This document shows positions 40,064 through 63,325 of a DNA stretch of 64,000 nt, piece by piece. The stretch lies in assembly GCF_024105665.1 (NCBI RefSeq), contig NZ_JAAAMK010000007.1, positions 124,001-188,000 on the forward strand, read 5' to 3'. The notes below the pieces were generated by a model. That model was not told the DNA's origin. It saw only the letters and a program-made list of their open reading frames with translations, and ran no database searches. Origin of the DNA: Aliihoeflea aestuarii. Its GTDB lineage: Bacteria > Pseudomonadota > Alphaproteobacteria > Rhizobiales > Rhizobiaceae. Within the stretch, counting starts at the first letter, position 1; each line of letters starts with the position of its first letter. Position numbers and translations under genes: made by a program.

Positions 40064-40139
<76 letters not shown>

Positions 40140-40282
40140 TTTCACTTTCCCGCATTTGCGCAAGCGTCGCGAACTCGTCCAGTGCGAGTCCAGAATAGCT
40201 ACTATTTGCTACTTGATTTCATCCTGATCCGAAAAGACGGTTCCGGTCCGCAATTCGTTTGCTCAGACCGTCTGCCGATGAA

Positions 40283-41443
40283 ATGAAGAGAGTTTTCAGA
40301 TACGCATATTGGAGATGGCGAGGGGTTCGGGAGCGCTATGTCGAGCCGTTCGCGACGACGCTTTGGCATCGCTTGTACGGCCGGCGCAAGATCAGGACCA
40401 TGCCGGGGTACAGGAAGCCGGGAAGCAAAGTCGCGATCTACCTGATCTATCCGAAATGGACCGTCCAGCCCTCCCACATACGGTCGATGGCATACTTGGC
40501 CGAAAAGGGCTTTTCGGTAATCGTCGTCTCCAATCTGGCTTTGTCTCCAAACGATATCGACCTGCTCCGACCGCACAGCACGAGCATTATCGAACGACCC
40601 AATATCGGGTATGACTTCGGCGGGTATCAGGATGGAGTCCGCAGCATCCGAAGCTGTCGCGATGCGCTCGATCAACTGATCCTTGTCAACGATTCCACCT
40701 GGTTTCCGCTTGCGGGCAGTCGGGACTGGATCGAGGATGTATCTGCGTTGGGCGTGGATTTTGCGGGTGCTGCGTCCAATCTTGGGCTCGCACCTCTCGC
40801 CCCTGAAGAATTCCGGTCCTTCGAATGGTCCTATGAGACCGGACGGCCGCAATTTCATTATGGTTCCTACGCGTTGAGCTTTGGGAAAAAAATCCTGCGC
40901 GATGGCGCATTCTGGTCTTTCTGGGACCGGTTCCAGATTACGAACGACAAAATTCAAACGGTCCGGCGCGGAGAGGTCGGGCTTTCGCAACTCCTGATCG
41001 GTCGCGGACATAGTCATGGCTGCACGCTGGCGATGGATGATCTCGGCTCCTACGTCGCAAGCTTGTCGGACGAGCGTCTCGGGCAACTCGTCCGTGCGCT
41101 GATCATTCCTCAGGAGCGGGAACTCAGCGTAGCAAAAGCTGCCTTTCTGGCCCATGAACCGGCGTCTGCCGAATGGCGCGGTGACGCCGTCAGATTCATC
41201 TTGAATGCCATCGCCCGAACCGGAATCAGCTACGCACTGCCGGAACTGACGGTGCGGGAACTGGGATTTCCGTTTCTTAAAAAATCGCCGCTCTTTCTGG
41301 ATTCCGAGGGTTGCCGGGAAACGCTTCGTATCCTGAAAATGCAGCCCGATCCGATCGGGACGGAGCTTCTGGCCGAGGCTCGGCACATGATGGGCACCGA
41401 CGAGCCTGAAAGAAAGCGCCTCGTTTCAACGAAGGCGGCGTAG
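40283..41443 (+). CDS. RgpF-like (rhamnan synthesis F) glycan protein
   Basis: A 386-aa protein of the rhamnan synthesis protein F family (PF05045). The core is KVAIYLIYPKWTVQPSHIRSMAYL, IIERPNIGYDFGGYQDGV and LDQLILVNDSTWFPL, and the end is GFPFLKKSPLFLDSEGCRETL. This family is found in clusters for rhamnose-containing or other surface polysaccharides and is probably glycosyltransferase-related, but its reaction is not settled. I use ATG 40283; a TTG at 40259 is possible. It is convergent with a paralogue at 41493-42389, which shares GYDF, NDS and FLKKS. Confidence 0.8.
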   Translation: MKRVFRYAYWRWRGVRERYVEPFATTLWHRLYGRRKIRTMPGYRKPGSKVAIYLIYPKWTVQPSHIRSMAYLAEKGFSVIVVSNLALSPNDIDLLRPHSTSIIERPNIGYDFGGYQDGVRSIRSCRDALDQLILVNDSTWFPLAGSRDWIEDVSALGVDFAGAASNLGLAPLAPEEFRSFEWSYETGRPQFHYGSYALSFGKKILRDGAFWSFWDRFQITNDKIQTVRRGEVGLSQLLIGRGHSHGCTLAMDDLGSYVASLSDERLGQLVRALIIPQERELSVAKAAFLAHEPASAEWRGDAVRFILNAIARTGISYALPELTVRELGFPFLKKSPLFLDSEGCRETLRILKMQPDPIGTELLAEARHMMGTDEPERKRLVSTKAA

Positions 41444-42606: not shown

Positions 42607-45600
42607 ATGAGGGAAATCGCGGTCGTTCTCGCAGGCGAGGAATCGCTTCTTGCCCAATGCGGCGAAATTCTGCTTCAGCGCGGACATCGCATCGCGCTCG
42701 TGATGACGGACGCGCCTGCCATCCGCGACTGGGCGCAAAGCCAAAACCTGGATGTGCGTGACTGGGGGGAGGGGCTTGGCGAGCAGCTTCGCGGGGTTTC
42801 GTTCGACTGGTTCTTCAGCATCGCCAATCTGCGCGTAATCCCGCAGGACATTCTGCGGCAGGCGCGTTCAGGTGCGGTGAATTTCCATGACGGCCCGTTG
42901 CCGCGCTATGCGGGCCTCAACACGCCGTCCTGGGCGATCATGGAGGGCGCGCAGACCTATGGCGTCACCTGGCACGACATGGAGGGCGGCATCGATATGG
43001 GTGACATTCTTGCGTCACTCGAATTTTCGATCGCGCCGGACGAAACGGTTCTGACGCTGAATGCCAAGTGCTTCGAGGCGGGAATTTCGAGCTTCACCGA
43101 TCTGATTTCCGGCATCGAAACGGATATGTCGACAGCCCGGCCGCAGCCGGAAGGTGCGCGGGTTACCTATCGCAAGACGGCTCGGCCAGTCGCTGCGGGC
43201 CTCATCGATTTCAGCCGCAGCGCGGTGGAGCTTTCGCGGCTTTCGCGGGCACTCGATTTTGGATCGCGCTACGCGAATCCGCTGGTGATGCCGAAGATCG
43301 CCGCGGCCGACACCATCTACGCCTTGACTGAACTGACCGTGCTCGATCAGCCGAGCGATCAGCCCCCTGGCACCGTGGTTGCCGTCGATGCCGACGGCGT
43401 CATCGTGGCGGCAGCCGACCGGCTGCTGCGCGTCGAGGGGCAGGCGATCGACGGCAGCGGAAGTCTCGCTTCCGTGGCCGGTTCCTTGCGGACGCTGCCG
43501 GTTCCGAGCGGTGAATTCCTGCGAGCCGTCGATGATGTCGTCGCTCGCGTTGTACCCCATGAAGCCTATTGGCTGTCGTCGCTTGCGGGCGCTGCCGATA
43601 TCGACGCGCAATGGGCGGGCGCAGGTTCCGGGACGCCGGCGGTGATCGAACTGGCGATGCCGGACGGCATGACGCCGCCCGATATGCTGGCATCGACCGT
43701 CGCGTTCTTTGCCCGATATTTCGCGGCTTCCCGTTTTGCGGTTGCTTATTCCAGCGACGAACTGACCGCCATGGCGGCACCCTTAAGGGGGCTTGTCGCG
43801 AGGTCGGTGCCCGTCTGTCTCGACATCGATCTCGATGGCGACGCTGCATCTCTGCGCGCTGCACTCGCGCGGACATTCGACGAGGCGCGACGAAAGTCGA
43901 CGTTTCTGAGCGACATTTTTCTTCGGCATCCGGGCCTGCGGCAGCCGGACTTGTCCATCGGCATCGTCGAGACCGCAGACGCCGCCCGCTCGGTGGGATT
44001 GCCCGGATGCGCGGTGACCTTCGCCATCGATCGCAAGGGACGCATGGTCGCCATTTGCGATCCTGGACGCATTTCTCCCGGCAAGGCTCGCGAACTTGCC
44101 GATCGTCTGACCGTTTTCGCCGCTGCCTTCGCTGCGGGCGGAATGTGCGTCGGTGACATGCCGACGGCCAGCGAGGAGGAGATGCGCCGCCTTCTCGTCG
44201 AGTTCAACGATACGGACGGCGATTACGACCGAGATGCCTGCGTGCACGATTTGATCGAACGACAGGTGCTACTGACCCCCGATGCCGTTGCAGTCGCGTT
44301 CGATGACCGGTCGATCACGTATCGCGAACTCGATCTTGCCGCCGACACGGTGGCCGCCGCGCTTCGTGAGAAAGGCGTCGGGCCGGACATGCCCGTCGGC
44401 CTCCATGTCAGGCGCTCGGCAGAACTCGTCATCGGCGCGCTCGGCATTTTGAAGGCGGGCGGCGCCTATGTGCCGCTCGATCCGGATTTTCCGACCGACC
44501 GGCTCGCGATGATGGTCGAGGACAGCGAGACGGCCTTCATTCTCACCGAACGGGATCTGACGCCGGTGACGACGAAGCAGGGCGTCGCCTTGCTGGATAT
44601 TCACGAACTCGTCGCGACGAAGCGTCCCAAGCCCGATGGTGTGCCCGTTCGGCCGGAAAATCTCGCTTACGTCATCTATACGTCGGGTTCGACCGGACGG
44701 CCCAAAGGCGTGATGATCGAGCACCGGAACGTGGTCAACTTCTTCGCCGGGATGGACCAGCGCGTGCCCTTGGGCACGGAGCGCCAGCCCGTGTGGTTGG
44801 CGGTGACGAGCCTTTCGTTCGACATATCCGTGCTCGAACTTTTCTGGACGCTGTCACGCGGCTTCAAGGTCGTGATCCATACAAGCGATGTCCATCGCGC
44901 GCACCGCTTGGCGGCCGTGCCGGCAACCGCTTCGGTGCCGGTGCACGGGTCGATGGATTTCGGCCTGTTCTACTGGGGCAATGACGATGGCGCGGGGCCG
45001 GCGAAATATCGGCTGCTTCTGGAAGGGGCGAAATTCGCCGACGCGCACGGGTTCACAGCGATCTGGACGCCGGAAAGGCATTTTCATGCCTTCGGTGGCC
45101 CGTATCCGAACCCTGCCGTGACCGGTGCGGCGGTCGCTGCCGTGACATCCAATCTCGAAATTCGCGCGGGAAGCTGCGTTTTGCCCCTGCATCACCCGGC
45201 GCGGGTGGTCGAGGAATGGGCCGTCGTCGACAATCTATCGAACGGGCGGGTCGCGCTTGCCTTCGCGTCCGGCTGGATGCCGGAGGACTTCGTGCTGCGG
45301 CCGGAAAACGCACCGCCCGCCAACAAGGCGGCGCTCAGCCGTGACATCGAAACCGTGCGCCGGCTGTGGCGGGGCGAATCGGTCGAGTTTCCGATGGGCG
45401 ACAAGGTCGTTTCGGTCATCACGCAGCCGCGCCCGGTTCAGCGCGACCTGCCGGTCTGGCTGACGACGGCCGGCAATCCGGAAAGCTACCGCGAAGCGGC
45501 GAATCTGGGCGCCAACGTTCTGACCCATCTGCTCGGACAGTCGATCGAGGAACTGGGCGAGAAGATCGCGATCTATCGCACGGCGCTGGCCGCACAGGGG

Positions 45601-47232
45601 CGCGATCCGGCCGCTCACAAGGTCACGCTCATGCTGCACACGCTCATGGGCGAGGATCGCGAAGAAGTCCGCGAACTCGCGCGCGAGCCGATGAAGGACT
45701 ATCTGCGCAGCGCCGCCGCGCTCATCAAGCAATATGCATGGGCATTCCCGGCCTTCAAGAAACCTGTCGGCGTGGCTCAGGCGATGGATATCGATCTGCG
45801 CGATCTGGCTGAGGACGAGATGGACGCGATCCTCGACTTCGCGTTCCATCGCTATTTCGAGGATAGCGGCCTGTTCGGCACGGTCGAGGATTGCCGCGAG
45901 CGCATTGCGCAGCTCAAGGCCATCGGGGTGGACGAAGTGGCGTGCCTGATCGATTTCGGCGTCGCGACGGATGCGATCCTTCCGCGCCTCGAACCGCTTG
46001 CCCGCCTCGTCGCCGAATGCGGCAAGGGCGCTTTGCGGTTGAATGGCGTTGCTTCACGGGTGGAAGAGCCGATCGGCTTTGCAGGGGAAGTCGCACGCCA
46101 TCGGGTCACGCATCTGCAATGCACGCCATCAATGGCGCGCATGTTTCTGGCGGATGAGGACAACCGCCGGGCGATGGGCACCATCGACCATCTCATGATC
46201 GGCGGGGAACCGCTGTCCGGTGCGCTGCTGGCGGAACTGCGAACGATCACCGACGCGACCATCGAGAACATGTACGGCCCGACGGAAACGACGATCTGGT
46301 CGTCGACCATGCACGCGGAGGCAACCGATGGCGTCGTGCCGCTCGGAACGCCTATTTTGAACACGCAGTTCTACGTGCTCGACCGGAGGGGCAAGCCGGT
46401 GCCGGCGGACATGCCGGGCGAGTTGTGCATCGGCGGCGACGGCGTCGCGCGGGGCTATCTCGGCCGGCCGGAACTGACGCGCGAGCGCTTCATGAACAAT
46501 CCGTTCGCGGATGGACGCATCTATCGGACTGGCGACCTCGTTCGCTTCGATCCAGATGGCCAGACCTTGCGCTTCATCGGCCGCACCGACCATCAGGTCA
46601 AAGTGCGCGGCTACCGGATCGAGCTTGGCGAGATCGAGGCGCGGATGCAGTCGTTTTCCGGCGTTCTCGAAGCCGTTGCCGTGGCACGGGACGACGCCCG
46701 AGGCAATGCGCGCATCATTGGTTATCTTCGGGCGTCCGCGCCGGTCGATCAGGCGCAATTGCGTGCGCATGTCGCTGCCGCGCTGCCGGAATACATGGTG
46801 CCGTCGCGCTTCATCGAACTCGACCGGTTCCCGCTTACACCCAACGCGAAAGTCGATCGTGCCCGGTTGCCGGAAGTGGAAGAGCGCTCACTGGCCACAG
46901 TCGAACCTATTTTGCTTTTGCCGTCCGGCGACCGCGAGAAGGCGATCGCGCAGGCATTCGCGCGCGTGCTGGGCCTTGAGCGGATCGGGCTCGCCGACAA
47001 TTTCTTCGCACTCGGTGGTCACTCGCTTCTCGCCGTGCATCTTCATCGGGATATCAAAGCCTCGATCGCGCCGGAAATCACGATCACGGATATCTTCCGC
47101 TTTCCGACGGTTGCTGCGCTTGCCGGGCATCTGGCGAACCGCTCCGCATCGAGCGAGCGGCTGAGTTCGGTCGCCGACCGCGCGGCCATGAGGCGCGCGC
47201 GCATGCAGCAGACGGCCGGGGCGCGGCACTGA
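42607..47232 (+). CDS. NRPS: formyltransferase - degenerate C-like - adenylation interrupted by luciferase-like monooxygenase - PCP
   Basis: A 1541-aa assembly-line protein. Residues 1-275: formyltransferase with N92, H94 and D130 (FHDGPLPRYAGLN, GGIDMGD) spaced as in methionyl-tRNA formyltransferase. About 300-545: segment like the end of a condensation domain, without HHxxxDG. From 548: adenylation domain with AYVIYTSGSTGRPKG and A4 FDISVLELFW. About 783-1130: flavin-dependent luciferase-like monooxygenase of the MupA/Atu3615 kind (MDFGLFYWGNDDG, TPERHFHAFGG, ASGWMPEDF) inserted between A4 and A5. The A domain then resumes (NMYGPTETT, YRTGDLVR, NAKVDR). PCP: S1473 in LGGHSLLA. No thioesterase. 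Plausibly an initiation module loading a formylated, oxidised amino acid. PPTase follows four bases later. Confidence 0.92.
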   Translation: MREIAVVLAGEESLLAQCGEILLQRGHRIALVMTDAPAIRDWAQSQNLDVRDWGEGLGEQLRGVSFDWFFSIANLRVIPQDILRQARSGAVNFHDGPLPRYAGLNTPSWAIMEGAQTYGVTWHDMEGGIDMGDILASLEFSIAPDETVLTLNAKCFEAGISSFTDLISGIETDMSTARPQPEGARVTYRKTARPVAAGLIDFSRSAVELSRLSRALDFGSRYANPLVMPKIAAADTIYALTELTVLDQPSDQPPGTVVAVDADGVIVAAADRLLRVEGQAIDGSGSLASVAGSLRTLPVPSGEFLRAVDDVVARVVPHEAYWLSSLAGAADIDAQWAGAGSGTPAVIELAMPDGMTPPDMLASTVAFFARYFAASRFAVAYSSDELTAMAAPLRGLVARSVPVCLDIDLDGDAASLRAALARTFDEARRKSTFLSDIFLRHPGLRQPDLSIGIVETADAARSVGLPGCAVTFAIDRKGRMVAICDPGRISPGKARELADRLTVFAAAFAAGGMCVGDMPTASEEEMRRLLVEFNDTDGDYDRDACVHDLIERQVLLTPDAVAVAFDDRSITYRELDLAADTVAAALREKGVGPDMPVGLHVRRSAELVIGALGILKAGGAYVPLDPDFPTDRLAMMVEDSETAFILTERDLTPVTTKQGVALLDIHELVATKRPKPDGVPVRPENLAYVIYTSGSTGRPKGVMIEHRNVVNFFAGMDQRVPLGTERQPVWLAVTSLSFDISVLELFWTLSRGFKVVIHTSDVHRAHRLAAVPATASVPVHGSMDFGLFYWGNDDGAGPAKYRLLLEGAKFADAHGFTAIWTPERHFHAFGGPYPNPAVTGAAVAAVTSNLEIRAGSCVLPLHHPARVVEEWAVVDNLSNGRVALAFASGWMPEDFVLRPENAPPANKAALSRDIETVRRLWRGESVEFPMGDKVVSVITQPRPVQRDLPVWLTTAGNPESYREAANLGANVLTHLLGQSIEELGEKIAIYRTALAAQGRDPAAHKVTLMLHTLMGEDREEVRELAREPMKDYLRSAAALIKQYAWAFPAFKKPVGVAQAMDIDLRDLAEDEMDAILDFAFHRYFEDSGLFGTVEDCRERIAQLKAIGVDEVACLIDFGVATDAILPRLEPLARLVAECGKGALRLNGVASRVEEPIGFAGEVARHRVTHLQCTPSMARMFLADEDNRRAMGTIDHLMIGGEPLSGALLAELRTITDATIENMYGPTETTIWSSTMHAEATDGVVPLGTPILNTQFYVLDRRGKPVPADMPGELCIGGDGVARGYLGRPELTRERFMNNPFADGRIYRTGDLVRFDPDGQTLRFIGRTDHQVKVRGYRIELGEIEARMQSFSGVLEAVAVARDDARGNARIIGYLRASAPVDQAQLRAHVAAALPEYMVPSRFIELDRFPLTPNAKVDRARLPEVEERSLATVEPILLLPSGDREKAIAQAFARVLGLERIGLADNFFALGGHSLLAVHLHRDIKASIAPEITITDIFRFPTVAALAGHLANRSASSERLSSVADRAAMRRARMQQTAGARH

Positions 47233-47235
47233 GCG

Positions 47236-47934
47236 ATGGACACGGCAGGATTGTTCGACGCGGACGTCGCCGTTGCAGCGGCCTTGGTCGACATGTGCGA
47301 TCAGCCATTGTTTCCGGTCGAGCGTGCCGCGATCGCCAATGCCTGCCCGTCTCGGATCGCCGAATTTCGCGCGGGACGCCAATGCGCGCATCTTGCTCTT
47401 GAACGGTTGGGACTAACGGCGACCGCGATTGCAGCGAGCAGCGCGCGCGCGCCATGCTGGCCGGCGGGCGTCGTCGGCTCCATCAGCCATACGGACGAAT
47501 TCGCCATCTCGGCGGTCGCGCGCTCGCAAAGCTATGCCGGGGTTGGTGTCGATGTCGAAGCGGCGGGCGAACTCGACGCATCGCTTGTCGATCTCATATG
47601 CGGACCGGTCGAGCGGGCAGGCATGCGGATGATGTCGCCCGGTCAGGCGCGGCTTCAAGCCAAGACGATCTTCAGCATCAAGGAAAGCGTCTTCAAGTGT
47701 CAGTTCCCGCTCACCGGAGTCTGGCTCGAATTTACCGATATCGAGGTCGCCATCGCCTTCGACCGCACCAGCTTCGAAGCCGTTTTGCTGCGGGACGCAG
47801 GGCCGTTGCGGCGGGGACGCATCGTTTGCGGACGGTTGCGGGAAACTGAGGATTACGTTCTGAGTTCGGCGTGGTTGCGCGATCTCAATATGCCTTGCTG
47901 CGGTCGGAGAGCGCAACAAGCGTCAGCAGCATGA
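47236..47934 (+). CDS. 4'-Phosphopantetheinyl transferase (EntD/Sfp type)
   Basis: A 232-aa enzyme that moves phosphopantetheine from CoA to carrier-protein serines. Motifs: RIAEFRAGRQCAHLALERLG, VVGSISHTDEFAISAV, GVGVDVEAAG with the Mg-binding Asp and Glu, and TIFSIKESVFKCQFP. It begins four bases after the NRPS stop, so the NRPS and its activating enzyme are coexpressed. It should also serve the PKS at the right edge. The last 50 bases overlap the end of the sugar transferase gene on the other strand. Confidence 0.92.
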   Translation: MDTAGLFDADVAVAAALVDMCDQPLFPVERAAIANACPSRIAEFRAGRQCAHLALERLGLTATAIAASSARAPCWPAGVVGSISHTDEFAISAVARSQSYAGVGVDVEAAGELDASLVDLICGPVERAGMRMMSPGQARLQAKTIFSIKESVFKCQFPLTGVWLEFTDIEVAIAFDRTSFEAVLLRDAGPLRRGRIVCGRLRETEDYVLSSAWLRDLNMPCCGRRAQQASAA

Positions 47935-49321
47935 TCTTGATGTCGAGCCAAAGCGACCAGTTGTGAATGTACCACAGGTCGTGTTCGACGCGCGCCTTCA
48001 TGCTGTCGATGGTCGGTGTCTCGCCGCGCAGGCCGTTGATCTGCGCCCATCCGGTGATCCCTGGTTTCACGTTGCGGCGAAAGGCATATTGCGCAATCAG
48101 CGCATCGTAGCTGTCGTCGTGCGAGACGGCGTGCGGACGTGGTCCGACCACGGACATGTCGCCGAGCAGGACGTTCCACAGTTGCGGAATCTCGTCGATG
48201 CTTGTGGAGCGTATGAACGCGCCCACGCGGGTGACGCGGGCATCGTTGCGCCTGGCCTGAATGATCGCGTCGCCGTCTTCCAGAACTTTCATGCTTCGAA
48301 ACTTGACGATGGGAAACGTCACGTCGTTGCAGCCGCGCCGCCTTTGCACGAAGAAGACCGGGCCACGGCTTTCCAGCTTGATGGCGAACGCCGTTATGAT
48401 GAAGATCGGGAAGAGCGAAACGAGCGCGCACAGGGCAAATGCGATGTCGAAGCTGCGCTTCAGGAAATGCTCGACGCCGCTCAGCGGCGCATGCTGCACT
48501 TCGACAGCGGGAAGGCGGCCGATTCTCGTCGCGGGCTGGCGGATGATGTCGGCGATCATCGGCTCCAGCGCGAGCTTCACGGGCATCGGCATGGTACGCA
48601 ATTCCGCCAGCAACTCGCCAATGGACGTCAGGTCGGAACTGTCGCACGCGACGAGCACCTCGTCGGCGCTTCGGGCGATCATGGTATTGGTCGTCGACAT
48701 CCATTGTGCCGCCGACTGATTTTCCGGCAGGGTCAGCACACCGGTCAGGATGACGCCGCTGTCGGCGATCTGTTCGCGCAGGCGGGTGATGGAATAGCCC
48801 GCCTTGCACACGAGCACGATGCGACGCGGCTGGACCAGTCCCCGCGCGGTGGCCCTGGGTATCCAGTGCGCCCAGAACAGTCGCGTCGAGATGAGCAGGG
48901 CCGGGCAAAGCACAACGAACATGAGCGCGGTGCCGCGCGAGAATTGATCGCTGATCTTGAACAGGAAGCTCAGGAGGGCGAGAAATCCGATCGATGTGGA
49001 TCCATAGACAGCAATACGCAGGAACTGTTTGCGAACGCGCATAAGTTCGATGGGCCGATAAGCGCCTTTCGCCATGGCCTGAGCGACGAAACCTGCCGCC
49101 AGAAGTATGCCGGCTCCAATATACTTGGAAAGCTCGGGGGTGTTGTGAAGCTCTGCGAAATAGCTGTAGAGCGCATAGCAGGCCACGGTTGCCAGGACGA
49201 TCACCATCGCGTCGGCGGTCGCAGCCAGATAGAATATCGATCCTACGCGCGGCTTGCCGATCTCGTCGGCCGCATGAAGTCGAACTACGCCGCCGGTCTG
49301 AGCCGCATATTCGTTTCTCAT
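47885..49321 (-). CDS. Polyprenyl-phosphate sugar-1-phosphate transferase (WcaJ/ExoY family, long form)
   Basis: A 478-aa initiating enzyme of exopolysaccharide assembly. The N-terminal half has four to five membrane helices ([36 protein letters not shown]) and a CoA-binding-like domain ([21 protein letters not shown]). The C-terminal catalytic domain has [35 protein letters not shown] and [27 protein letters not shown], with the DE and PRP residues of the family. It links the first sugar, often glucose or galactose, to undecaprenyl phosphate. ATG 49321 has AGG about 8 bases upstream. It is divergent from the GT2 gene at 49567. Confidence 0.92.
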
Positions 49322-49566: not shown

Positions 49567-50430
49567 ATGAAGCCTGCCGGGCGGGCGCGTGGATTGAGCG
49601 TCATCATTCCTGCAAGCAACGAAGCGGCGTTGATCGGCAACGCCCTTTCCGCACTCTTGTCGTCGCGGACCGGGGGCGGGGTGCCGTTTACCGTCCAGAT
49701 CGTTGTCGTGGCGAATGGATGCGGCGACGATACGAGCGGCGTGGCGCGCAGCTTTGCGGAGCAGGCACGAGCGCGGGACTGGTCGCTGATCAGCCTCGAT
49801 ATCGCCGAGGGCGGTAAGCTGAACGCACTCAACGTGGGCGACGAAAACGCGTCCTATGACAACCGCATCTATCTCGACGCCGATGTCGTGGTCGCTCCGG
49901 GCCTTCTGGAAGCGCTGGCGGATGTGCTGGACAGTCCCGAACCCGTCTATGCGAGCGGCATGCTGCGAATTTCCAAAGCGCGCAGCTTCGTAACGCGCCG
50001 GTATGCGCGTTTTTGGGAAAAGCTTCCTTTCGTTTCGGAAGGTGTTCCCGGCTGTGGGTTGTTCGCGGTCAATGCCGCCGGCCGCGCTCAGTGGGGGAGG
50101 TTTCCCGACATCGTCTCGGACGATACGTTCGTCCGGCTGCAATTTTCACCGCCGCAACGTCTTGCGGTTCGCGAATATTTCGACTGGCCGATGGTTGAGG
50201 GATTCCGAAATCTCGTTCGGGTGCGGCGACGTCAGGACCGAGGCGTTCGTGAGGTGACGAGGCTCTTTCCCGAACTGCGCCGAAACGACGAAAAAAAGAA
50301 ACCCGGACTTCGAAAGCTTGCACGGCTTGCCCTGCGCGACCCTTTGGGATTCATCATCTACTCAAGCGTTGCGGCCGTCGTTCGCATGCCGGCTGGAGAC
50401 GTCGGGCTCGCCTGGGAAAGAGGACGTTAG
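49567..50430 (+). CDS. Family 2 glycosyltransferase
   Basis: A 287-aa GT-A enzyme: LSVIIPASNEAALIGNALSAL, IVVVANGCGDDTSG, GGKLNALNVGDE and the donor-binding DxD-like IYLDADVVVAPGLLEAL, then GVPGCGLFAVNAAGRAQWGRFPDIVSDDTFV with the catalytic acidic pair. It has no obvious membrane anchor except a hydrophobic C-terminal stretch (LGFIIYSSVAAVVRM). It adds a sugar during repeat-unit assembly; donor and acceptor are unknown. ATG 49567 has GGGGA eight bases upstream. Confidence 0.88.
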   Translation: MKPAGRARGLSVIIPASNEAALIGNALSALLSSRTGGGVPFTVQIVVVANGCGDDTSGVARSFAEQARARDWSLISLDIAEGGKLNALNVGDENASYDNRIYLDADVVVAPGLLEALADVLDSPEPVYASGMLRISKARSFVTRRYARFWEKLPFVSEGVPGCGLFAVNAAGRAQWGRFPDIVSDDTFVRLQFSPPQRLAVREYFDWPMVEGFRNLVRVRRRQDRGVREVTRLFPELRRNDEKKKPGLRKLARLALRDPLGFIIYSSVAAVVRMPAGDVGLAWERGR

Positions 50431-50550: not shown

Positions 50551-51345
50551 ATGGTGCTGGCTGACGATTTGTCTGGATTCGATCGTGAACCAAATCGGTC
50601 ACGACGTTCGCAATTCCTCGGCATGCCGTTCGATCAGGTCAGTTTTGCGCATGTTCTCGATGAGCTGCGCGCCAGCGGGACCGATCAGCCCGCGCGTTAT
50701 GTAGTGACGCCCAATGCCGATCATGTCGTGAAGCTCTCGCGCAACAGCAAGCTGGCCTTCATATATGACGATGCGTGGCTGTCTTTGTGCGACAGCAAGC
50801 CGGTATGGGCGATGTCGCGGTATCTGAACGGCGGACTGGACCATGTCACCGGTTCGGACCTGACCGCTCACATTTTCAAGAGCGTACTTCGTGCCCGCGA
50901 CCCGGTGGCGCTGGTCGTCGCAAATCAGGAGCTCGCGGATGCGATGATCCTGAACTACCCGGATCTGAGATTTCGTATCCATGTCCCGCCGGCGCGGCTT
51001 GCCGACCAGCGCGACGCGTTCGAAGCGTGCGTCGACTTTCTTGCGGCAGAGCCGGCGCGCTTCGCCTTCGTCGCAATCGGCGCGCCCCAATCGGAACGGA
51101 TCGCGCATGCGTGGTCGCGTCGTCCGGGCACCACAGGAACCGCGCTATGCGTCGGCGCCTCTCTCGAGTTCATCGTGGGATTGAAGACGCGCGCACCGCG
51201 CTGGATGCGGGCGGCGGGGCTGGAATGGCTGCATCGGCTGATGAGCGAACCGCGACGCCTGTGGCGGCGCTACACCCTCGCCGTCGTTCCGCTGTTCCAG
51301 CTCCTCGTCGGCCAGATACGGCGCAGCCGAATGAAGCGGATCTGA
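50551..51345 (+). CDS. WecG/TagA/CpsF family glycosyltransferase
   Basis: A 264-aa GT26 enzyme: QPARYVVTPNADHVVKLSRNSKLAFIYDDAWLSLCDSKPVW, VTGSDLTAHIFKS, and AFVAIGAPQSERIAHAWSRRPGTTGTALCVGASLEFIVGLKTRAPRWMRAAGLEWLHRLMSEPRRLWRRY. These match the ManNAc/N-acetylhexosamine transferase family closely, with the C-terminal RAP..(G)LEW..RL..EPRR signature. It acts on lipid-linked sugar at the inner face of the membrane. The start is uncertain: ATG 50551 is used, while ATG 50623 (MPFDQVSF) gives the usual family start. Confidence 0.9.
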   Translation: MVLADDLSGFDREPNRSRRSQFLGMPFDQVSFAHVLDELRASGTDQPARYVVTPNADHVVKLSRNSKLAFIYDDAWLSLCDSKPVWAMSRYLNGGLDHVTGSDLTAHIFKSVLRARDPVALVVANQELADAMILNYPDLRFRIHVPPARLADQRDAFEACVDFLAAEPARFAFVAIGAPQSERIAHAWSRRPGTTGTALCVGASLEFIVGLKTRAPRWMRAAGLEWLHRLMSEPRRLWRRYTLAVVPLFQLLVGQIRRSRMKRI

Positions 51346-51358
51346 CGTTCGCTCCGCC

Positions 51359-52378
51359 TCATTTATATTCGATCAGGAGTGGATCGCGGCGGCGTAACGC
51401 CGACAGGTGAAATGTCGCAATGCCTTGCAGTTCGGCAAGCTTGCCGATGACGAGCAAACCGGCGCTTGCGAGTCCGAAGCGTGAAAAATCGCGTCTTCGA
51501 AAGACCAGCCGTGCCCACTGAAGCGGATAGGCGAGCAGGCCCAGCAGCGCCCACCCGCCGGCAATCGGCGCCAATGCGAGGAGGGCCGGTGCAAGCCCGC
51601 CCCAAAAGAAAGCCCGAAACACGTTGCGCCGCCAAAGGCGTTGCGGAGATGCCCGGTGCATGGCCTCGATCTGTGCGAAGGCATGGCCGCCACGCACGGT
51701 CCGTCGCCACCATTGGGAGAAATGAAGAATGTCGGCGTCGTGACGGGTCATTTCCTCGGCGATCCGGAATATGCGCCAGCCTCTTTCACGAAGCCGAATG
51801 CAAAGTTCGGGTTCCTCGCCTGCGATAAGGCCGTCATTGAAGCCGCCGACCTGACGAAAGGCGTCCACACGCGCCAGAAAGTCGCCGCCGCATTCATCGA
51901 TCTCGCCTAGCGGACCGTTCCATTCCTGATCGCAAAGCGCATTATATACGGTGCGTTCGGGCCAGCGCTCACGGCGCCGTCCGCAGACGAGCGCGACCTT
52001 GGGATTGCGAGTGAGAAACGTCGCCGCCGCGGAAATCCAGTCCGGCTGAAGCTGGCAATCGCCGTCAAGGAACTGGACGAAGGAAGTTTCGGGCGCTTCG
52101 TGCATCAACTGCCGAAACCCGAGATTGCGAGCGCGGGCGGCTGAAAACTGCGAGCCGCGTTCCATGATGACGACCGTCGCGCCCATTCGCACGGCCGTTG
52201 CGACGCTGCCATCCGTGGAGCCGGAATCGACATATATCGTCGTCTTCCCCTTGCCGAGAATCGACGCGAGGCAGTCGACCAGCCGTTGACCCTCATTGCG
52301 GCCGATCACGACGATCCCGATTTGACCTGTCGCGGCGGTGACGTCCGCAGGGCTGATATTCATCGACATCGTGATCAA
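51359..52378 (-). CDS. Family 2 glycosyltransferase with C-terminal membrane part
   Basis: A 339-aa enzyme: QIGIVVIGRNEGQRLVDCLASIL, TTIYVDSGSTDGSVATA, ARNLGFRQL, VQFLDGDCQLQPDWI and GEEPELCIRLRERGWRIFRI. The last 100 residues have two or three hydrophobic helices (FFWGGLAPALLALAPIAGGWALLGLLAY, FGLASAGLLVIGKLAEL). This layout fits inner-membrane transferases extending lipid-linked repeat units. It overlaps the upstream GT2 gene by four bases (ATGA), so the pair is translationally coupled. Confidence 0.88.
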   Translation of the reverse strand: MITMSMNISPADVTAATGQIGIVVIGRNEGQRLVDCLASILGKGKTTIYVDSGSTDGSVATAVRMGATVVIMERGSQFSAARARNLGFRQLMHEAPETSFVQFLDGDCQLQPDWISAAATFLTRNPKVALVCGRRRERWPERTVYNALCDQEWNGPLGEIDECGGDFLARVDAFRQVGGFNDGLIAGEEPELCIRLRERGWRIFRIAEEMTRHDADILHFSQWWRRTVRGGHAFAQIEAMHRASPQRLWRRNVFRAFFWGGLAPALLALAPIAGGWALLGLLAYPLQWARLVFRRRDFSRFGLASAGLLVIGKLAELQGIATFHLSALRRRDPLLIEYK

Positions 52379-53325
52379 ACCTTCAGCCAGCTATGTCTCA
52401 TGAAGTCGGTCAGCAATCGTGGCTCGGATCGGGAGCGGGACGATGCGAGTTGCCGCAGACGAAAGCCGGCCTGTCCCGCAAGCCATGCGAGGTCCGCGAG
52501 AAGCGCATAGAATTGTCCGTGATGCTTGACGAAATAGCGCCGGCGCGAGTGAAACCAGTAGGCCGGACGGCGTCTTGCGGCCGCGTCGCGTTTCGTCACG
52601 TTGGTCGATTGCCCGACGAGATGCACGACGCGACTTTCGGGAACATGCCAGCATTCGAAGCCGGCCTTGGATGCACGCAGGCAAAAATCGAGTTCCTCGT
52701 AATAGAGGAAATAGGCCTCGTCGAGCAAGCCGACCGCCTCCACGACCTCGCGTTTCACCATCAGGCTCGCGCCGGAGACCCAGTCGATCCGGCTCGGCCG
52801 GTCGGGCATATCCGGGGCGACACGCCAGTTTTCGAGCAAGCGGGTGAAAGGACCTACGCGTATGGTCGATTCCAGTTCGCTGGCGACGCCCGGAAACCTG
52901 AAGGCGCATGCCTGGGGTGTCCCATCCGGGTCCTCCAGCCGCGATCCGGCAATTCCCGCATTCGGGTTTTCGTCCAGAAACGTAGCCAGTCGCGCCACAG
53001 CGCCGGTTCGCACGCGCGTGTCGGGATTGAGAAGCAGATAAAGACGCGAAGGCCCGAACAACGCATCCGCGACCTCGATCGCCCCGTTGTTCCCGGCCGA
53101 GAAGCCACGATTTTCGGAATGTTCAACCAAAGTGACGCGATCGCCCCAGTCACGCTCGATCGCGGCTTCGCGCAGGCTTTTCATGTCCTGCGACGGAGAC
53201 GCATTGTCGGCGACGACGATTCGCGTGTCTTTGGGCAGAAGAGAATCTTCGATCAGCGAATCGACGCAGTCGATCGTCAGATCGAGCGCGTCGTAGTTCA
53301 AGATGATGACGGCGATACCGGTCAC
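52375..53325 (-). CDS. Family 2 glycosyltransferase, rhamnosyltransferase-like (WbbL type)
   Basis: A 316-aa enzyme: GIAVIILNYDALDLTIDCVDSL, RIVVADNASPS, VEHSENRGFSAGNNGAIEVA, LYLLLNPDTRVRTGAV and WVSGASLMVKREVVEAVGLLDEAYFLYYEELDFCLRASKAGFECWHVPESRVVHLVGQST. The NRGF(S/A)xGNN and EE/EDxDFCxR patterns are those of dTDP-rhamnosyl transferases such as WbbL, though the sugar donor cannot be fixed from sequence. It leads the minus-strand GT2 pair and is divergent from the SGNH gene at 53551. Confidence 0.88.
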   Translation of the reverse strand: MTGIAVIILNYDALDLTIDCVDSLIEDSLLPKDTRIVVADNASPSQDMKSLREAAIERDWGDRVTLVEHSENRGFSAGNNGAIEVADALFGPSRLYLLLNPDTRVRTGAVARLATFLDENPNAGIAGSRLEDPDGTPQACAFRFPGVASELESTIRVGPFTRLLENWRVAPDMPDRPSRIDWVSGASLMVKREVVEAVGLLDEAYFLYYEELDFCLRASKAGFECWHVPESRVVHLVGQSTNVTKRDAAARRRPAYWFHSRRRYFVKHHGQFYALLADLAWLAGQAGFRLRQLASSRSRSEPRLLTDFMRHSWLKV

Positions 53326-53457: not shown

Positions 53458-53550
53458 AATTGAATGTTGTGTTGTTAGCGAGCTTTGCTTCAATTTCTTC
53501 CAGGGAGCATGTCACAATGCTGCGTGGCGCTGGGAAGAAGGTGGGCGCGA

Positions 53551-54465
53551 ATGTACAGGCTATTCAGCCCCGCTGCCGTCGGCCTGCTTGTCGTGGCCGC
53601 GTTCGGTCTCAGCGGAAGCAAGACGGGGTCGGCGGATACCGACGCACTTTACGCGCGTCCGGTCGAAGCGCCGTCGGCGCCGCTGCGCGTATTCCACCTC
53701 GGACACAGTCTCGTCGGGCGCGACATGCCCGCCATGCTCGCCCAGCTTGCGGGAGCGGGCCATACATATGAAAGCCAGCTCGGCTGGGGCACGACGATGA
53801 AAGCCCATTGGGAGCCCGGTCACGAGATCGAAGGATTCGATGTCGAAAACGACCATCCCCGATACCGGCCCGCACGCGAAGCGGTCGACAGCGCAGACTA
53901 CGACGCGCTGGTTCTGACCGAAATGGTCGAGATCAAGGACGCGATCCGCTATTTCGACAGTGCGACCTATACGAGACGCTGGGCCGAGGCCGGCTGGACA
54001 GCCAATCCCGACATCCGCGTCTATCTCTATGAGACCTGGCACCCTTTGAACGACCGGGAAGGGTGGCTGGCGCGCATCGACCGCGACATCGGTCTTTACT
54101 GGGAAGGTCAGGTTCTCGTACCGGCCCTTCGCGACCGTCCGATCCACGTCATTCCGGCAGGCCAGGTTCTCGGCGCCTTCGTCCGCGAGGTGGAGGCGCG
54201 GGGCGGGGTCGGCAACGTGGCGGACCGCACATCGCTTTTCAGCGATGATATCCACCTCAACGACCTTGGAGCATATCTCGTCGCGCTCACGCATTATGCG
54301 GTGCTCTACGGTCGTGATCCGCAGGGGCTTCCCCGCACGCTGATGCGTGCCGACGGCAGCGCGGCGCAGGCTCCCGACGAAGAGGCGGCACGGCTGATGC
54401 AGGAAATCGTGTGGACCGTCGTTTCGACCTACCCGAAGACGGGGGTGGCGTCGCATGGCCTCTAG
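53551..54465 (+). CDS. SGNH-hydrolase-like protein, exported copy
   Basis: A 304-aa protein. The N-terminus is a signal peptide or anchor (MYRLFSPAAVGLLVVAAFGLSGS). The rest has SGNH-type blocks: block I LGHSLVGRDMP (S53), a middle DALVLTEMVEI and VYLYETWHPLND, and block V SDDIHLNDLGAYL (D232, H235). These could form a Ser-His-Asp catalytic triad, which in polysaccharide loci often removes or transfers acetyl groups. I know no named family with exactly these blocks. ATG 53551 has GAAGG about 9 bases upstream. The next gene is a paralogue, with 11 bases of overlap. Confidence 0.7.
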   Translation: MYRLFSPAAVGLLVVAAFGLSGSKTGSADTDALYARPVEAPSAPLRVFHLGHSLVGRDMPAMLAQLAGAGHTYESQLGWGTTMKAHWEPGHEIEGFDVENDHPRYRPAREAVDSADYDALVLTEMVEIKDAIRYFDSATYTRRWAEAGWTANPDIRVYLYETWHPLNDREGWLARIDRDIGLYWEGQVLVPALRDRPIHVIPAGQVLGAFVREVEARGGVGNVADRTSLFSDDIHLNDLGAYLVALTHYAVLYGRDPQGLPRTLMRADGSAAQAPDEEAARLMQEIVWTVVSTYPKTGVASHGL

Positions 54466-55378
54466 CCTCATCAACATTCTCCTGATCGGGCACAGCCTGA
54501 TCGGAACCACGATGCCCCTGATGCTGCAGGACGTCGTCGGGGCTCGGCATGCGGGCGACAAGGTGAACTTCCAGATTATCAACGGTGCGCCGCTGGTCTG
54601 GAACTGGGACCATTCGGCTGAAGCGCAGGGCGTCGACGCGCGGGCGGTGCTGCCGGGCGGCGACGTCGACGTGGTGGTGATGACCGAGGCCGTTCCGCTG
54701 CTCAGCCATACGACGTGGAGCGCGTCCGGGGAAAACGCATTCAAGTTCTACGACCTCGCCGTCACTGCGAATCCGGATGCCCGGGTCTATCTCTTCGAAA
54801 CATGGCACAGCCTCAACAGCGGAACCGGCGTGCGCATCGAGAACAATGGCAATGACGATATCCCGTGGCGGGTGCGGATTGATCAGGACCTCCCGCTTTG
54901 GGAGAGCATCGTGGATTTCGTCAATGACGAGCGCGCGCCCGGTCAGCCCGAAATGCTCATCGTTCCGGGCGGTCAGGCCATGGCTCTGCTTCATGACGAG
55001 ATCGCAGACGGCACGGTACCGGGAACGAAGCGGCTGAACGACGTTTTCGGCGACGACATCCACCCGAACGATATCGGCGCCTACTTCATCGCCATGGTGC
55101 AATACGCAACCATCTACGGCGAAAGCCCGGTCGGCCTGCCCACCAGCTTGCGGAACGAATGGGGGCAGGTGTTTTTCACCGCCCAGCCCGACCTTGCAGA
55201 ACGGCTTCAGGAAATCGCGTGGGAGGCGGTCCGATCCTATCCCCGTTCCGGGGTCGCGAGCGACGGGCGGCGCAGCGAACGGGCGTCGCCGACAGCGCTG
55301 GCTTCGCGTGATCCGGTGGTCGTTGAACCTGCCCATTTCAAGAACAACGGCGCAACTATGCACGGTGAACTGCAATGA
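54455..55378 (+). CDS. SGNH-hydrolase-like protein, paralogue without signal peptide
   Basis: A 307-aa protein related along its whole length to the gene before it: LIGHSLIGTTMP (S14), DVVVMTEAVPL, VYLFETWHSLNSG, WRVRIDQDLPLWE and GDDIHPNDIGAYFIAMVQYATIYG (D200, H203). The conserved block I begins at residue 11, so there is no room for a signal peptide; it should act in the cytoplasm, or be carried by another route. A C-terminal tail of about 50 residues is unique to it. The stop overlaps the start of the export protein gene (ATGA), so it is coupled to the export genes. Confidence 0.7.
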   Translation: MASSLINILLIGHSLIGTTMPLMLQDVVGARHAGDKVNFQIINGAPLVWNWDHSAEAQGVDARAVLPGGDVDVVVMTEAVPLLSHTTWSASGENAFKFYDLAVTANPDARVYLFETWHSLNSGTGVRIENNGNDDIPWRVRIDQDLPLWESIVDFVNDERAPGQPEMLIVPGGQAMALLHDEIADGTVPGTKRLNDVFGDDIHPNDIGAYFIAMVQYATIYGESPVGLPTSLRNEWGQVFFTAQPDLAERLQEIAWEAVRSYPRSGVASDGRRSERASPTALASRDPVVVEPAHFKNNGATMHGELQ

Positions 55379-56628
55379 ATATCGCGAACCGCTTTTCGAC
55401 GACGTGCCGGAGCGTAGCAAATCGCGCAATCGCCCTGCTCGTTCTGCTATGTGTCGCGGCGGCACAAGTGAACGCGCAGGAGGCATACACGCTTCGACCG
55501 GGAGACGTTCTGGAGTTCTGGGTCGCGCAGGACGAACAGCTCAATCGCAGTGTGACTATCGGCCCCGATGGACGGCTCTCACTGCCTCTGGTCGGCCATT
55601 TGACCGTGGAGGGGAAAACCGTCGACGAAGTGGAGGCGGACGTTATCGATCGCCTGCGTCCTTACTATACGGACAGTCTCGATATCGCGGTCATGCTACA
55701 GCCGCATCCCTCGCATCTGCCGTCGGTATTCGTGGCGGGTGAGGTCGAGGAACCCGGCGTCTTTCCGTATCGTCCGGGCATGACGGTGCTCCATGCGATA
55801 ACATTGGCGGGCGGTCCTTATCGCACACCGCTGGTCGCGCGAGACGTCGATCGCTCGATCCTTCTGAAAAGCGAAATCGACGCAGCGCAGAAGTCGGGCG
55901 CCGAAATCAGCTTTGCGATCGCGCGACTGGAAGCCGAACTTGCCGGATCCGATCGGGTCGTGGCTCCCAGCAATCTCGCGTTCGAGCTTTCCGAAGCCCA
56001 GCTCGCCGAAATCGGGGAGCGTGAACAACGGCTTCTGGACCTTCGCATCGCCGCACGCACCTCCGCGTCGAATGTGTCGAGCGAGGTGAGGGAGATGACC
56101 ACGCGCGGCATCGAAGCGGTGCGCCAGCAGCGCGGGATCATCGACCGCCGCCGGGAGCTTCAGGCGGAACGCGTCGCCTCGGCCACCACGCTGGTTGAGC
56201 GAGGCCACATGCAGCGCTCGCAACTGCTGGAGCAACAAGGCGGTTTGGCCGCGATCGACGGCGAGGCCGGTGAACTCGAGGCGCAGATCGCCGCAGCGGA
56301 GGCGTCGGCCATCGAGGAAGCCAACCGCGACGGCGTGCTGTCCGGCGAACGGCAGGTCGAGCTCATGACCGAGCTCAACGATGCGCGGCGGCAATTGGAG
56401 GCATTGAACGCAAGGCTGGGCGATAATCGCCGAGCGCTGGCGGTCTATGAACGCGACAGTGCAGGCAACAGCCAGGAAGCGCCGTTCGCCTATCGGATCA
56501 TGCGGACGATCGAGGGAACCAGCACGCAAATCGATGCCTCGACGCTGACGGCCCTGCTGCCGGGCGATCTGGTGGAAGTCATGAAGATTTCGAGCGCGAC
56601 GCCGATGGCGAGCGCGACGGTGAACTGA
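55375..56628 (+). CDS. Polysaccharide export protein (OPX/Wza-like, ExoF type)
   Basis: A 417-aa periplasmic/outer-membrane export protein. A signal peptide (AIALLVLLCVAAAQVNAQ) is followed by the poly-export domain (YTLRPGDVLEFWVAQDEQLNRSVTIGPDGRLSLPLVG) and an SLBB domain (SVFVAGEVEEPGVFPYRPGMTVLHAITLAGG). About residues 190-360 form a long coiled coil with Glu, Arg and Ala (RREL..ERVASATTLVERGHM). This layout is that of rhizobial ExoF rather than of E. coli Wza, and lacks a lipobox Cys. It forms or feeds the outer-membrane channel for the exopolysaccharide, with the Wzz-like protein encoded next. Confidence 0.9.
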   Translation: MNIANRFSTTCRSVANRAIALLVLLCVAAAQVNAQEAYTLRPGDVLEFWVAQDEQLNRSVTIGPDGRLSLPLVGHLTVEGKTVDEVEADVIDRLRPYYTDSLDIAVMLQPHPSHLPSVFVAGEVEEPGVFPYRPGMTVLHAITLAGGPYRTPLVARDVDRSILLKSEIDAAQKSGAEISFAIARLEAELAGSDRVVAPSNLAFELSEAQLAEIGEREQRLLDLRIAARTSASNVSSEVREMTTRGIEAVRQQRGIIDRRRELQAERVASATTLVERGHMQRSQLLEQQGGLAAIDGEAGELEAQIAAAEASAIEEANRDGVLSGERQVELMTELNDARRQLEALNARLGDNRRALAVYERDSAGNSQEAPFAYRIMRTIEGTSTQIDASTLTALLPGDLVEVMKISSATPMASATVN

Positions 56629-58261: not shown

Positions 58262-59037
58262 TCGAAGCCCTCAATCGGGCTCGCATCCTCTCCATCGAGG
58301 AGTTGAGGGCAAAAGCTGGCGCACCGGCGGAAGGTTTTCACGCAGACCAGTTGCATGCCGATCCATTTCGCGCGGCGAATCTGCCGGCCCATACACCATC
58401 GTCGCTCGATCTCAAAAACAAGCGGATCGTCGCATTCGACGCGAGAGATCGCCAGACGAGGATATTCGACCTTCTGCGCAACGGGCTGCTTGGAACGGTT
58501 GGAGACCACGACACACGCGTGATCGCGGTGGTGGCGCCCGCACATGGCTGCGGAGTGTCTACACTCGCTGCCAATCTGGCGTTCAGCACCGCGCGAAAGC
58601 GGCAGTGGCAGGTCGTGCTTGCCACGCTCGACCCGTCGCAGACATTCGAACGCCTCGGACTTCGCGCCACCGTAGCGGATTCAGGCAGTGTGGCGGGAGC
58701 CGAGACGATCAGGGTTCAGGTCGATGGTTCTGCGCTTTATCTGGCAAACCTGGCTACTCTTGGCGAACTGAGCGGGCAAACCGTTGCACGGCACACGCTT
58801 CTCCGCGACTGGATCGATCATGTCAAAAGAGAATGCGGACCGACCGTCCTGATCCTCGACCTGCCGCCGCTACCGATCAGCGATGACAGCGCAACGGTCG
58901 CGATGATGTCGAATACGGCGCTGCTCGTCGTGGGTGTCGGATCATCGACCGTCGCGGACATCGAGGCATGCCGAAGTTCGCTTGCGCAGACACCTCATTA
59001 CGTTGTCCTCAACAAGGCGCGCCCTCACGGTCTTTAA
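58249..59037 (+). CDS. BY-kinase/CpsD-like protein with defective P-loop
   Basis: A 262-aa protein in the position and fold of bacterial tyrosine kinases or ParA-like ATPases of polysaccharide loci. The P-loop segment is VAPAHGCGVSTLAANLA. Its key lysine is replaced by Val103 (GCGVST instead of GxGKST), and the Walker A' region (VVLATLDPSQ) lacks the usual D-x-R. Walker B is present (TVLILDLPPLPISDD). No Tyr cluster is found at the C-terminus (VLNKARPHGL). It probably binds or positions the copolymerase rather than acting as a normal kinase. It overlaps the copolymerase gene by 13 bases. Confidence 0.8.
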   Translation: MESVIEALNRARILSIEELRAKAGAPAEGFHADQLHADPFRAANLPAHTPSSLDLKNKRIVAFDARDRQTRIFDLLRNGLLGTVGDHDTRVIAVVAPAHGCGVSTLAANLAFSTARKRQWQVVLATLDPSQTFERLGLRATVADSGSVAGAETIRVQVDGSALYLANLATLGELSGQTVARHTLLRDWIDHVKRECGPTVLILDLPPLPISDDSATVAMMSNTALLVVGVGSSTVADIEACRSSLAQTPHYVVLNKARPHGL

Positions 59038-59159
59038 CGGCATCGTTTTCCTGCTTGCCGACGCTCCCGTCGCTGGGGCAGGGTGGCACGGCGCGCCCGC
59101 GCTTGCGGTCGGGCGCAGGTTCGGGCGCCGTTCTCAAGGTACGATCAGGATTTCGATCC

Positions 59160-60590: not shown

Positions 60591-60624
60591 CTAGGGTTGG
60601 GCCTTGGTCGCGGCGAGGATCGCC

Positions 60625-63279: not shown

Positions 63280-63325
63280 CGGTAAATTCGAGCCCCGCAG
63301 GGTCTGTCATTGGGTGCGTGATTTC

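Follow-up and report, generated by a model that had tools for sequence, protein, structure and literature searches.

What would an assembly line make if its first protein opened with a formyltransferase and carried a monooxygenase inside its adenylation domain? The question is raised by a nonribosomal peptide synthetase (NRPS) protein of 1541 aa encoded at 42607..47232 in a stretch of Aliihoeflea aestuarii DNA (the window: 64,000 nucleotides, contig NZ_JAAAMK010000007.1, positions 124,001 to 188,000). The original prediction, made from the sequence alone, held that the domain combination was uncommon and that the protein would load an amino acid to be formylated and oxidised while bound, for example as an N-hydroxy-N-formyl starter able to chelate iron. 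We read the protein, with moderate confidence, as the first member of a two-protein line in which a formylglycine-type loading module is followed by one extension on a polyketide synthase (PKS), the resulting acyl unit being most likely meant for a polysaccharide. The protein, its parts and the partner PKS are as follows, with L numbers denoting individual loci.

42607..47232, plus strand: NRPS loading protein of 1541 aa, its frame uninterrupted between ATG and stop; formyltransferase (F or FT), half condensation domain (halfC), adenylation domain (A) with inserted monooxygenase (MOX) and peptidyl carrier domain (PCP), written F-halfC-A(MOX)-PCP
42607..43503, plus strand: formyltransferase domain with its N- and C-domains, residues 1-299 (Pfam/NCBIfam, predicted fold, alignment)
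43546..44238, plus strand: C-terminal half of a condensation domain, residues ~314-544, the HHxxxDG-bearing N-terminal half being absent (HHalign)
44239..44889, plus strand: adenylation domain part 1, residues 545-761, reaching to motif A4 and the point of insertion (Pfam, motifs)
44959..46011, plus strand: inserted FMN luciferase-like monooxygenase, TIGR04020, residues 785-1135 (NCBIfam)
46063..46929, plus strand: adenylation domain part 2, A5-A10, residues 1153-1441, giving with part 1 the pocket DILQMGMIWK (motifs)
46942..47133, plus strand: peptidyl carrier domain, Ser1473 (Pfam, alignment)
63314..64000, plus strand, continuing beyond the window end to 69799 in window numbering (L089:2314-8799): start of the partner PKS, KS-AT-KR-DH-ACP-TE, 2161 aa (Pfam)

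Pfam, NCBIfam and HHalign bear out the predicted succession of formyltransferase, condensation-like remnant, split adenylation domain, MOX and carrier in one chain. Formyl_trans_N matches residues 58-159 and Formyl_trans_C 198-277; AMP-binding starts at 551 and picks up again past the insert at ~1156, followed by AMP-binding_C at 1342-1415 and PP-binding at 1446-1509, and the same scan of the protein returned no lyase domain. TIGR04020 (MupA/Atu3671 LLM) matches 785-1134 with 480 bits, above its curated cut-off of 244.45. The MOX lies between A4 (FD739ISVLE) and A5 (1222-1231), as had been claimed. In the AlphaFold model of residues 1-545 (mean pLDDT 95.1), residues 1-299 form the formyltransferase fold, and the matches listed in the fold search were formyltransferases; that search, carried out with residues 1-545, was dominated by them and hence says nothing on the half condensation domain. 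A domain of PuwE (PDB 6ket) matches the MOX over almost its entire length. The best-scoring PDB sequence for the whole protein is LgrA, the linear gramicidin synthetase, although the two formyltransferase domains match with 24.6 bits only. Like LgrA, the window protein starts with a formyltransferase with Asn-His-Asp catalytic residues and has A and PCP later. It is also evident that LgrA passes straight from F to A (its residue 198 aligns with 537 here), without MOX or half condensation domain, whereas the window protein has both. LgrA loads valine, and its chain passes on to more NRPS modules, not to a PKS. In PKS lines of the rhizopodin/tolytoxin type, an FT-A starter hands a formylated glycine-type unit to a PKS; these are large macrolide lines that are not known to have a MOX or a link to polysaccharide genes.

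A scan of a genome collection of 84,980 species yielded 471 stretches encoding relatives, and the best 80 of the 471 were kept; with the window protein they make up the 81 sequences and loci counted below. The same protein is encoded in all 80, with the span from formyltransferase to carrier in 79 (L036 ends at a contig edge). The nearest of these relatives shares 71% identity in its best segment, and the median identity of the aligned orthologues to the window protein is 50%. The formyltransferase residues N92, H94 and D130, singled out by the original prediction, are invariant in 81/81, the carrier Ser is present in 80/80 (one row is cut), and the key A-domain motif residues are invariant or almost so. 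Scored as the share of positions kept in at least 80 of the 81 aligned sequences, conservation is highest in the MOX (128/351 positions, 36%), followed by the A parts (22% and 21%), the PCP (18%) and the formyltransferase (33/290, 11%), and is lowest in the half condensation domain (5/241, 2%). Twelve further FT-bearing relatives have the triad intact in 10 cases and altered in L148 (D to N) and L159 (H to F), so that active sites degenerate in all homologues, which would have spoken against the prediction, are not what is found. A chance assembly or a set of degenerate domains is ruled out by the domain matches, the invariant FT triad and the conservation of the MOX.

The distribution of the F-halfC-A(MOX)-PCP protein is patchy but widespread, with many soil and marine bacteria among the carriers; the kept relatives include those of the culturable soil bacteria Aminobacter niigataensis DSM 7050 and Devosia limi DSM 17137. 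Among 61 genomes of relatives, 2 carry it, and in its class 7 of 385 genomes do (own genome in both counts). TIGR04020 scores above cut-off in 12 of 200 Pseudomonadota genomes, own genome included, and in nine of the 12 the host is the F-halfC-A(MOX)-PCP protein (full-length matches in ORFs of 1540-1630 aa); of the remaining three, two are proteins that stand alone, and one is a domain at the end of a PKS protein. Similarly, 112 genomes of Myxococcota (the phylum of L049, whose genome is included) contain 8 cases above cut-off, in ORFs of 1504-1663 aa, 7 of which have the formyltransferase. Together with the 80 orthologues kept as the best of 471 stretches, these cases in two phyla overturn the view that the architecture is rare.

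We assigned the substrate pocket (D739, I740, L743, Q1171, 1197, G1199, M1222, I1230, W1231 and K1415) from the motifs and the usual A-domain numbering. Read across the insert, it is DILQ[M/F/L/Y]GMIWK in 79 of the 81 sequences (DILQMGMIWK in 33, DILQFGMIWK in 30, DILQLGMIWK in 14 and DILQYGMIWK in 2), and the remaining two are DILQFGMIWK-like: in one the final position is cut off, and the other has L in place of the second M. In a 2025 survey of 2051 A domains (PMC12283262), four Gly-activating MOX domains all have DILQLGMIWK, and every MOX module of the survey sits in a Gly domain. The window pocket is of this Gly-MOX kind, which it shares with those four domains. Because the pocket carries the Gly-MOX code, glycine is the predicted substrate.

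The position of the insert points to the chemistry. PMC10204066 describes a flavin monooxygenase inserted between a4 and a5 in MtaG/MelG of myxothiazol and melithiazol, as in the window protein, that hydroxylates the glycyl alpha carbon. Cleavage of the carbinolamide then yields an amide plus a glyoxyl thioester, whereas solanimycin B keeps its hydroxyl. MupA, the family namesake, serves alpha-hydroxylation of a carrier-bound chain (PMC10953402). Oxidation of the alpha carbon rather than of nitrogen is favoured here because the related MOX proteins are reported or proposed in these sources to act on the alpha carbon, and no support for N-hydroxylation was found in the pocket code or in the accessible literature on this kind of MOX. 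The likely chemistry, judged from sequence, is N-formylation plus alpha-carbon hydroxylation of glycine rather than N-hydroxylation or iron chelation. Of the starter originally foreseen, loading, formylation and oxidation on the carrier would thus stand as the best reading, and the N-hydroxy-N-formyl form is disfavoured. The known MOX proteins are placed differently. According to PMC10204066, the MtaG/MelG module ends its chain and makes a terminal amide with the thioesterase next, whereas the window module starts a chain and the TE is on its partner; the full condensation domain and chain end of the MtaG/MelG type are replaced here by half a condensation domain and a PKS partner. MupA is a separate protein acting in trans, the PuwE domain lies between PKS and NRPS modules, and the flavin monooxygenase of solanimycin SolF sits between A8 and A9 (PMC10204066), unlike the window MOX, which is embedded in the A domain between A4 and A5.

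How, then, could a terminal type of module have come to start a chain? A profile of 60 FT-bearing forms was compared with 14 condensation sequences by HHalign: residues ~314-544 match condensation domains in their C-terminal half (probability 98.9, E 2.9e-17), and the formyltransferase half, taken as a control, scores a probability of 0.1. The predicted condensation-like remnant is therefore real, and the HHxxxD motif is absent from the protein. For the further relatives, the half domain is deduced from spacing, and in a few of them BLAST matches it directly. One myxococcal relative, L144 (L144:203-11082), lacks a formyltransferase and opens with a full condensation domain (PF00668, 267 bits), followed by A(MOX)-PCP; its condensation motif is PHIVLDG, not HHxxxDG, and its partner PKS has the same domain order as the partner of the window protein, TE included. 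In the MOX tree, L144 comes off close to the base; the fork there is open and the outgroup branch long, which leaves its placement unsure. The order in MtaG/MelG is C-A(MOX)-PCP-TE. Since the FT-bearing forms retain the C-terminal half of a condensation domain and L144 has a full one, the simplest history would be that the missing N-terminal half was supplanted by the formyltransferase. This suggests that formyl may have replaced the peptidyl or acyl donor, converting an MtaG-type terminal MOX module into a starter. The constant feature across the FT-bearing forms and L144 is an N-acyl donor ahead of the Gly-MOX, and it is from this that we propose formyl to be the minimal N-acyl group that would let the MOX act at the start of a chain.

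We then turn to the partner. A PKS of the main cluster lies near the NRPS in 72 of the 81 loci, or 75 of 81 with three fragments added, and a PKS relative is near the NRPS in 8/8 Myxococcota loci. Among PKS relatives of at least 1900 aa (66 of the 72 in the cluster), the KS, AT, KR Tyr/Asn, DH, ACP and TE Ser residues do not vary, and the TE His is found in 65/66, with one gap. Pairwise distances of NRPS and PKS correlate with r 0.945 over 66 loci, the best of 999 shuffles reaching 0.092. These results show that the NRPS and the PKS are conserved partners. In L145 and L146, the NRPS gene precedes the PKS gene with a 4-bp overlap, and in L145 the PKS lacks a TE and a C-A-PCP protein comes next, so that the formyltransferase protein heads a collinear series; by this comparison, collinearity of NRPS then PKS is supported. 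A docking-tail motif, defined after the tails had been viewed, occurs in 36 of 93 NRPS tails against 1 match in 138,237 body residues, and the docking-tail idea would be suggestive only. L145:2617-16000 and L160 both encode a myxococcal three-protein line (FT-A(MOX)-PCP, PKS without TE, C-A-PCP), possibly a small natural-product cluster.

From the pocket, the domains and the partner we infer the following course. The A domain would activate glycine and load it onto the carrier, and the formyltransferase would formylate the glycyl nitrogen to give the smallest possible N-acylglycyl thioester, a step assumed because of the fold, the intact catalytic residues and the LgrA precedent. The embedded MOX would then hydroxylate the alpha carbon of N-formylglycyl-S-PCP, much as the MtaG/MelG MOX acts on a chain-linked glycyl. 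Either N-formyl-alpha-hydroxyglycyl or, upon collapse of the carbinolamide, glyoxylyl plus formamide would pass to the partner PKS, which would carry out one extension, ketoreduction, dehydration and thioesterase release of a C4 acyl unit, predicted to be 4-formamido-4-hydroxycrotonyl, or 4-oxocrotonyl after cleavage. This unit would most likely decorate or condition a polysaccharide, with release as a free molecule as the main alternative; polysaccharide is the favoured destination because two phyla have the NRPS-PKS pair within polysaccharide clusters. The genes around the pair that bear on this are listed below.

40259..41443, plus strand: rhamnan-synthesis-F-like protein (PF05045)
47236..47934, plus strand: 4'-phosphopantetheinyl transferase (PPTase; profile match, with a gene of its cluster in 56/81 loci)
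47885..49321, minus strand: undecaprenyl-phosphate sugar transferase type protein (Bac_transf)
49567..50430, plus strand: GT2 glycosyltransferase (profile match)
50551..51345, plus strand: WecG/TagA/CpsF glycosyltransferase (profile match)
51359..52378, minus strand: GT2 glycosyltransferase (profile match)
52375..53325, minus strand: second member of the GT2 cluster of 51359..52378 (cluster membership only)
53485..54465, plus strand: SGNH-hydrolase-fold protein without Pfam match (G73-H-S75-L and D254xxH257 invariant in 38 aligned)
54455..55378, plus strand: second SGNH-like protein of the same family as 53485..54465 (cluster membership)
55375..56628, plus strand: Wza-like polysaccharide export protein (Poly_export/SLBB)
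56678..58261, plus strand: possible chain-length determinant (weak Wzz match, E 0.016, below cut-off)
58968..59993, plus strand: AAA ATPase similar to the XrtA/PEP-CTERM-associated one (TIGR03015 at 257 bits, short of the cut-off of 324.5)
60604..61785, plus strand: Gfo/Idh/MocA sugar oxidoreductase (profile match)
61897..63195, plus strand: GT1 glycosyltransferase (profile match)
L010:1683-3140, L011:1753-3186, L013:1887-3284 and L075:1624-3168: outer-membrane efflux protein beside the PKS (PF02321 for L010)

The own locus has the sugar transferase, glycosyltransferase, flippase and export genes of a Wzx/Wzy-type polysaccharide cluster (Bac_transf, WecG, glycosyltransferases, Poly_export, Polysacc_synt_3 and rmlABCD-like genes); for a Wzy-type polymerase there is a Wzy_C match of 28.6 bits, below the cut-off of 31.7. 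Recurrent polysaccharide gene families are found near 78 of the 81 loci and assembly/export families near 66, where clusters 34, 36, 39 and 40 were named by sequence inspection, not by family search, and the rml genes are Pfam-confirmed in the window's own contig only. Polysaccharide-type genes are also present at several Myxococcota loci. The sharing of PKS and glycan genes among clusters, which the original prediction had put forward as a check, is thus seen in 75 and 78 of the 81 loci, respectively. An SGNH family of 300-380 aa without Pfam match is near the NRPS-PKS pair in 37/81 loci (53485-55378 in the window, L088:17670-18617 and others).

These observations tie assembly-line biosynthesis to polysaccharide assembly, conserved across Alphaproteobacteria, Hydrogenophaga and Myxococcota. 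Each ingredient has a precedent of its own (LgrA for F-A-PCP, MtaG/MelG for Gly-MOX); for their combination in one chain, the conversion from terminal module to starter and the placement among polysaccharide genes, no description was found in a literature search that covered few subscription papers, nor was the architecture found already characterised. We know of no described product that the predicted starter unit matches. Tentatively, and with less confidence than in the two-protein line itself, we propose that the loci may form an undescribed, widespread class of polysaccharide cluster with its own NRPS-PKS line, in which a terminal Gly-MOX module was turned into a starter and the glycan receives a C4 acyl group that may be a reactive enal acid. 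If true, this would be nonribosomal/polyketide decoration of an extracellular glycan. The protein also shows how provision of the smallest N-acyl group could make a starter out of a terminal oxidative module.

Several points weigh against an acyl unit built by this line for a polysaccharide. To our knowledge, no product, enzyme assay or mutant is on record for the NRPS-PKS pair. Pocket codes are predictions, and formylation may be dispensable in some lineages, given the FT triad changes in L148 and L159. Six of the 81 loci have no PKS in the DNA examined; L021, L033 and L059 are at a contig end, and L009, L014 and L028 are not. The PKS gene is upstream on the same strand in 44 loci, divergent in 28, otherwise arranged in 2 and downstream in 1, and because PKS-first and divergent arrangements are the commonest, gene order alone is no proof of direction. 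Distances of other genes also correlate with those of the NRPS (PPTase 0.70, SGNH 0.63, Wzx 0.78, Bac_transf 0.93), and the NRPS-PKS correlation owes in part to shared descent. An acyltransferase that would move the acyl unit onto a sugar was not identified, and for the SGNH proteins an esterase role is just as conceivable. The outer-membrane efflux protein that adjoins the PKS in 4/81 loci would suit export of a free molecule. The discussion of PMC12283262 terms the MOX step beta-hydroxylation.

Among the alternatives, we regard it as possible, if less probable than the two-protein line with a polysaccharide destination, that the NRPS-PKS pair yields a diffusible molecule, such as a signal, an antibiotic or a reactive aldehyde acid, that is never attached, its co-location with polysaccharide genes reflecting joint regulation with biofilm or surface growth. 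The intact C-terminal thioesterase of the PKS, a domain that usually releases a free acid or ring, would fit this, as would the efflux protein in L010, L011, L013 and L075 and the pair in L145, which feeds an extra C-A-PCP protein and where the few flanking genes scanned include no assembly/export genes and one match to the glycosyltransferase-type PMT_2 domain. However, polysaccharide families lie near 78/81 loci and at several Myxococcota loci as well, and the efflux protein, at 4/81 loci, is the sole exporter of its sort among the recurrent neighbour families scanned.

A doubtful but still serious variant concerns the fate of the hydroxyl: the MOX step may cleave, giving formamide and a glyoxylyl starter and hence a 4-oxo-2-butenoyl-type unit, with formyl as a sacrificial handle. 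The carbinolamide split into amide and glyoxyl thioester in MtaG/MelG is a precedent, against which stands the hydroxyl retained in solanimycin B (both PMC10204066). The MOX is far more conserved than the FT (36% against 11% of positions), as cleavage might lead one to expect, but the protein has no lyase domain, and no formamidase turned up among the own-locus genes scanned, where no search was aimed at formamidase.

It is improbable that the module just loads and oxidises glycine, its FT domain surviving as a structural remnant. The altered triads of L148 and L159 and the mere 24.6 bits to the LgrA formyltransferase would agree with such a loss, whereas N92, H94 and D130 are invariant in 81/81 at a median identity of 50%, and free alpha-hydroxyglycine would fall apart. 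N-formyl-N-hydroxy groups do occur in siderophores, and FbnE of fabrubactin belongs to the MupA/Atu3671 LLM family. Yet an N-hydroxy-N-formyl, iron-chelating siderophore starter is very improbable: FbnE, a proposed maker of alpha-hydroxycarboxylate chelators, is a flavin monooxygenase, but the present kind of MOX is described in the accessible sources as acting on alpha carbons, not nitrogen, the pocket is one for glycine, no siderophore gene (chelator-forming or transport) is among the own-locus genes scanned (40259 to ~78329, 52375-53325 not covered), and an eLife 2026 survey regards FbnE hits that its fabrubactin-type markers did not capture as apparent false positives for metallophores.

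Carrier chemistry beside polysaccharide genes has a parallel in the exosortase/PEP-CTERM clusters, whose TIGR03098 ligase and TIGR03099 decarboxylase also place amino-acid or acyl carrier chemistry next to polysaccharide genes, although as small separate proteins with no NRPS-PKS pair. In nine of the 81 loci, all of Rhizobiales, a ligase and a decarboxylase resembling TIGR03098/TIGR03099 below cut-off adjoin the NRPS-PKS pair (L018:20201-23306), and five of the nine add a small carrier protein (L012:22198-22431); these genes may encode another carrier-based modification within the one polysaccharide cluster. In Phaeobacter inhibens T5, the accessible part of PMC4062626 names a PKS, Inhi_1972, and an NRPS, Inhi_1974, two numbers apart, and gives there no domain order, product or link to polysaccharide. 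Such spacing would fit the PKS-GT2-NRPS order of the Rhodobacterales loci studied here, and the two may correspond to the NRPS-PKS pair. For Tritonibacter mobilis AK171, the accessible account reports PKS and NRPS-like clusters that resemble no known cluster and gives no function.

Other families recur around the pair. The membrane proteins of cluster 14 (18 loci) have an own-locus member at 71043-72458 (window numbering, minus strand, outside the window) with a weak, sub-cut-off O-antigen ligase match, and the member L080:2948-4429 has no family match. Cluster 13 (18 loci) comprises proteins of ~600-850 aa (e.g., L071:51-2465, L080:18345-20849 and L083:18423-20978), some of which have a GHSL-type start like the SGNH family plus a longer conserved part with YSNEVWN; the L071 and L083 members have no Pfam match. 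In Hydrogenophaga, L040, L041 and L045 encode a ~2000-aa protein near the NRPS-PKS pair (cluster 44, e.g., L041:18900-24905), whose N-terminus resembles fatty acyl-AMP ligases by eye.

The GC profile of the window shows no sharp island (59-66% per 4 kb). tRNA genes are a common boundary of acquired islands, and ARAGORN places a tRNA-Lys(CTT) at 40064-40139 (plus strand), immediately ahead of the polysaccharide cluster. It also finds a tmRNA at 16072-16419 (minus strand) with the tag ANDNYAEARLAA.

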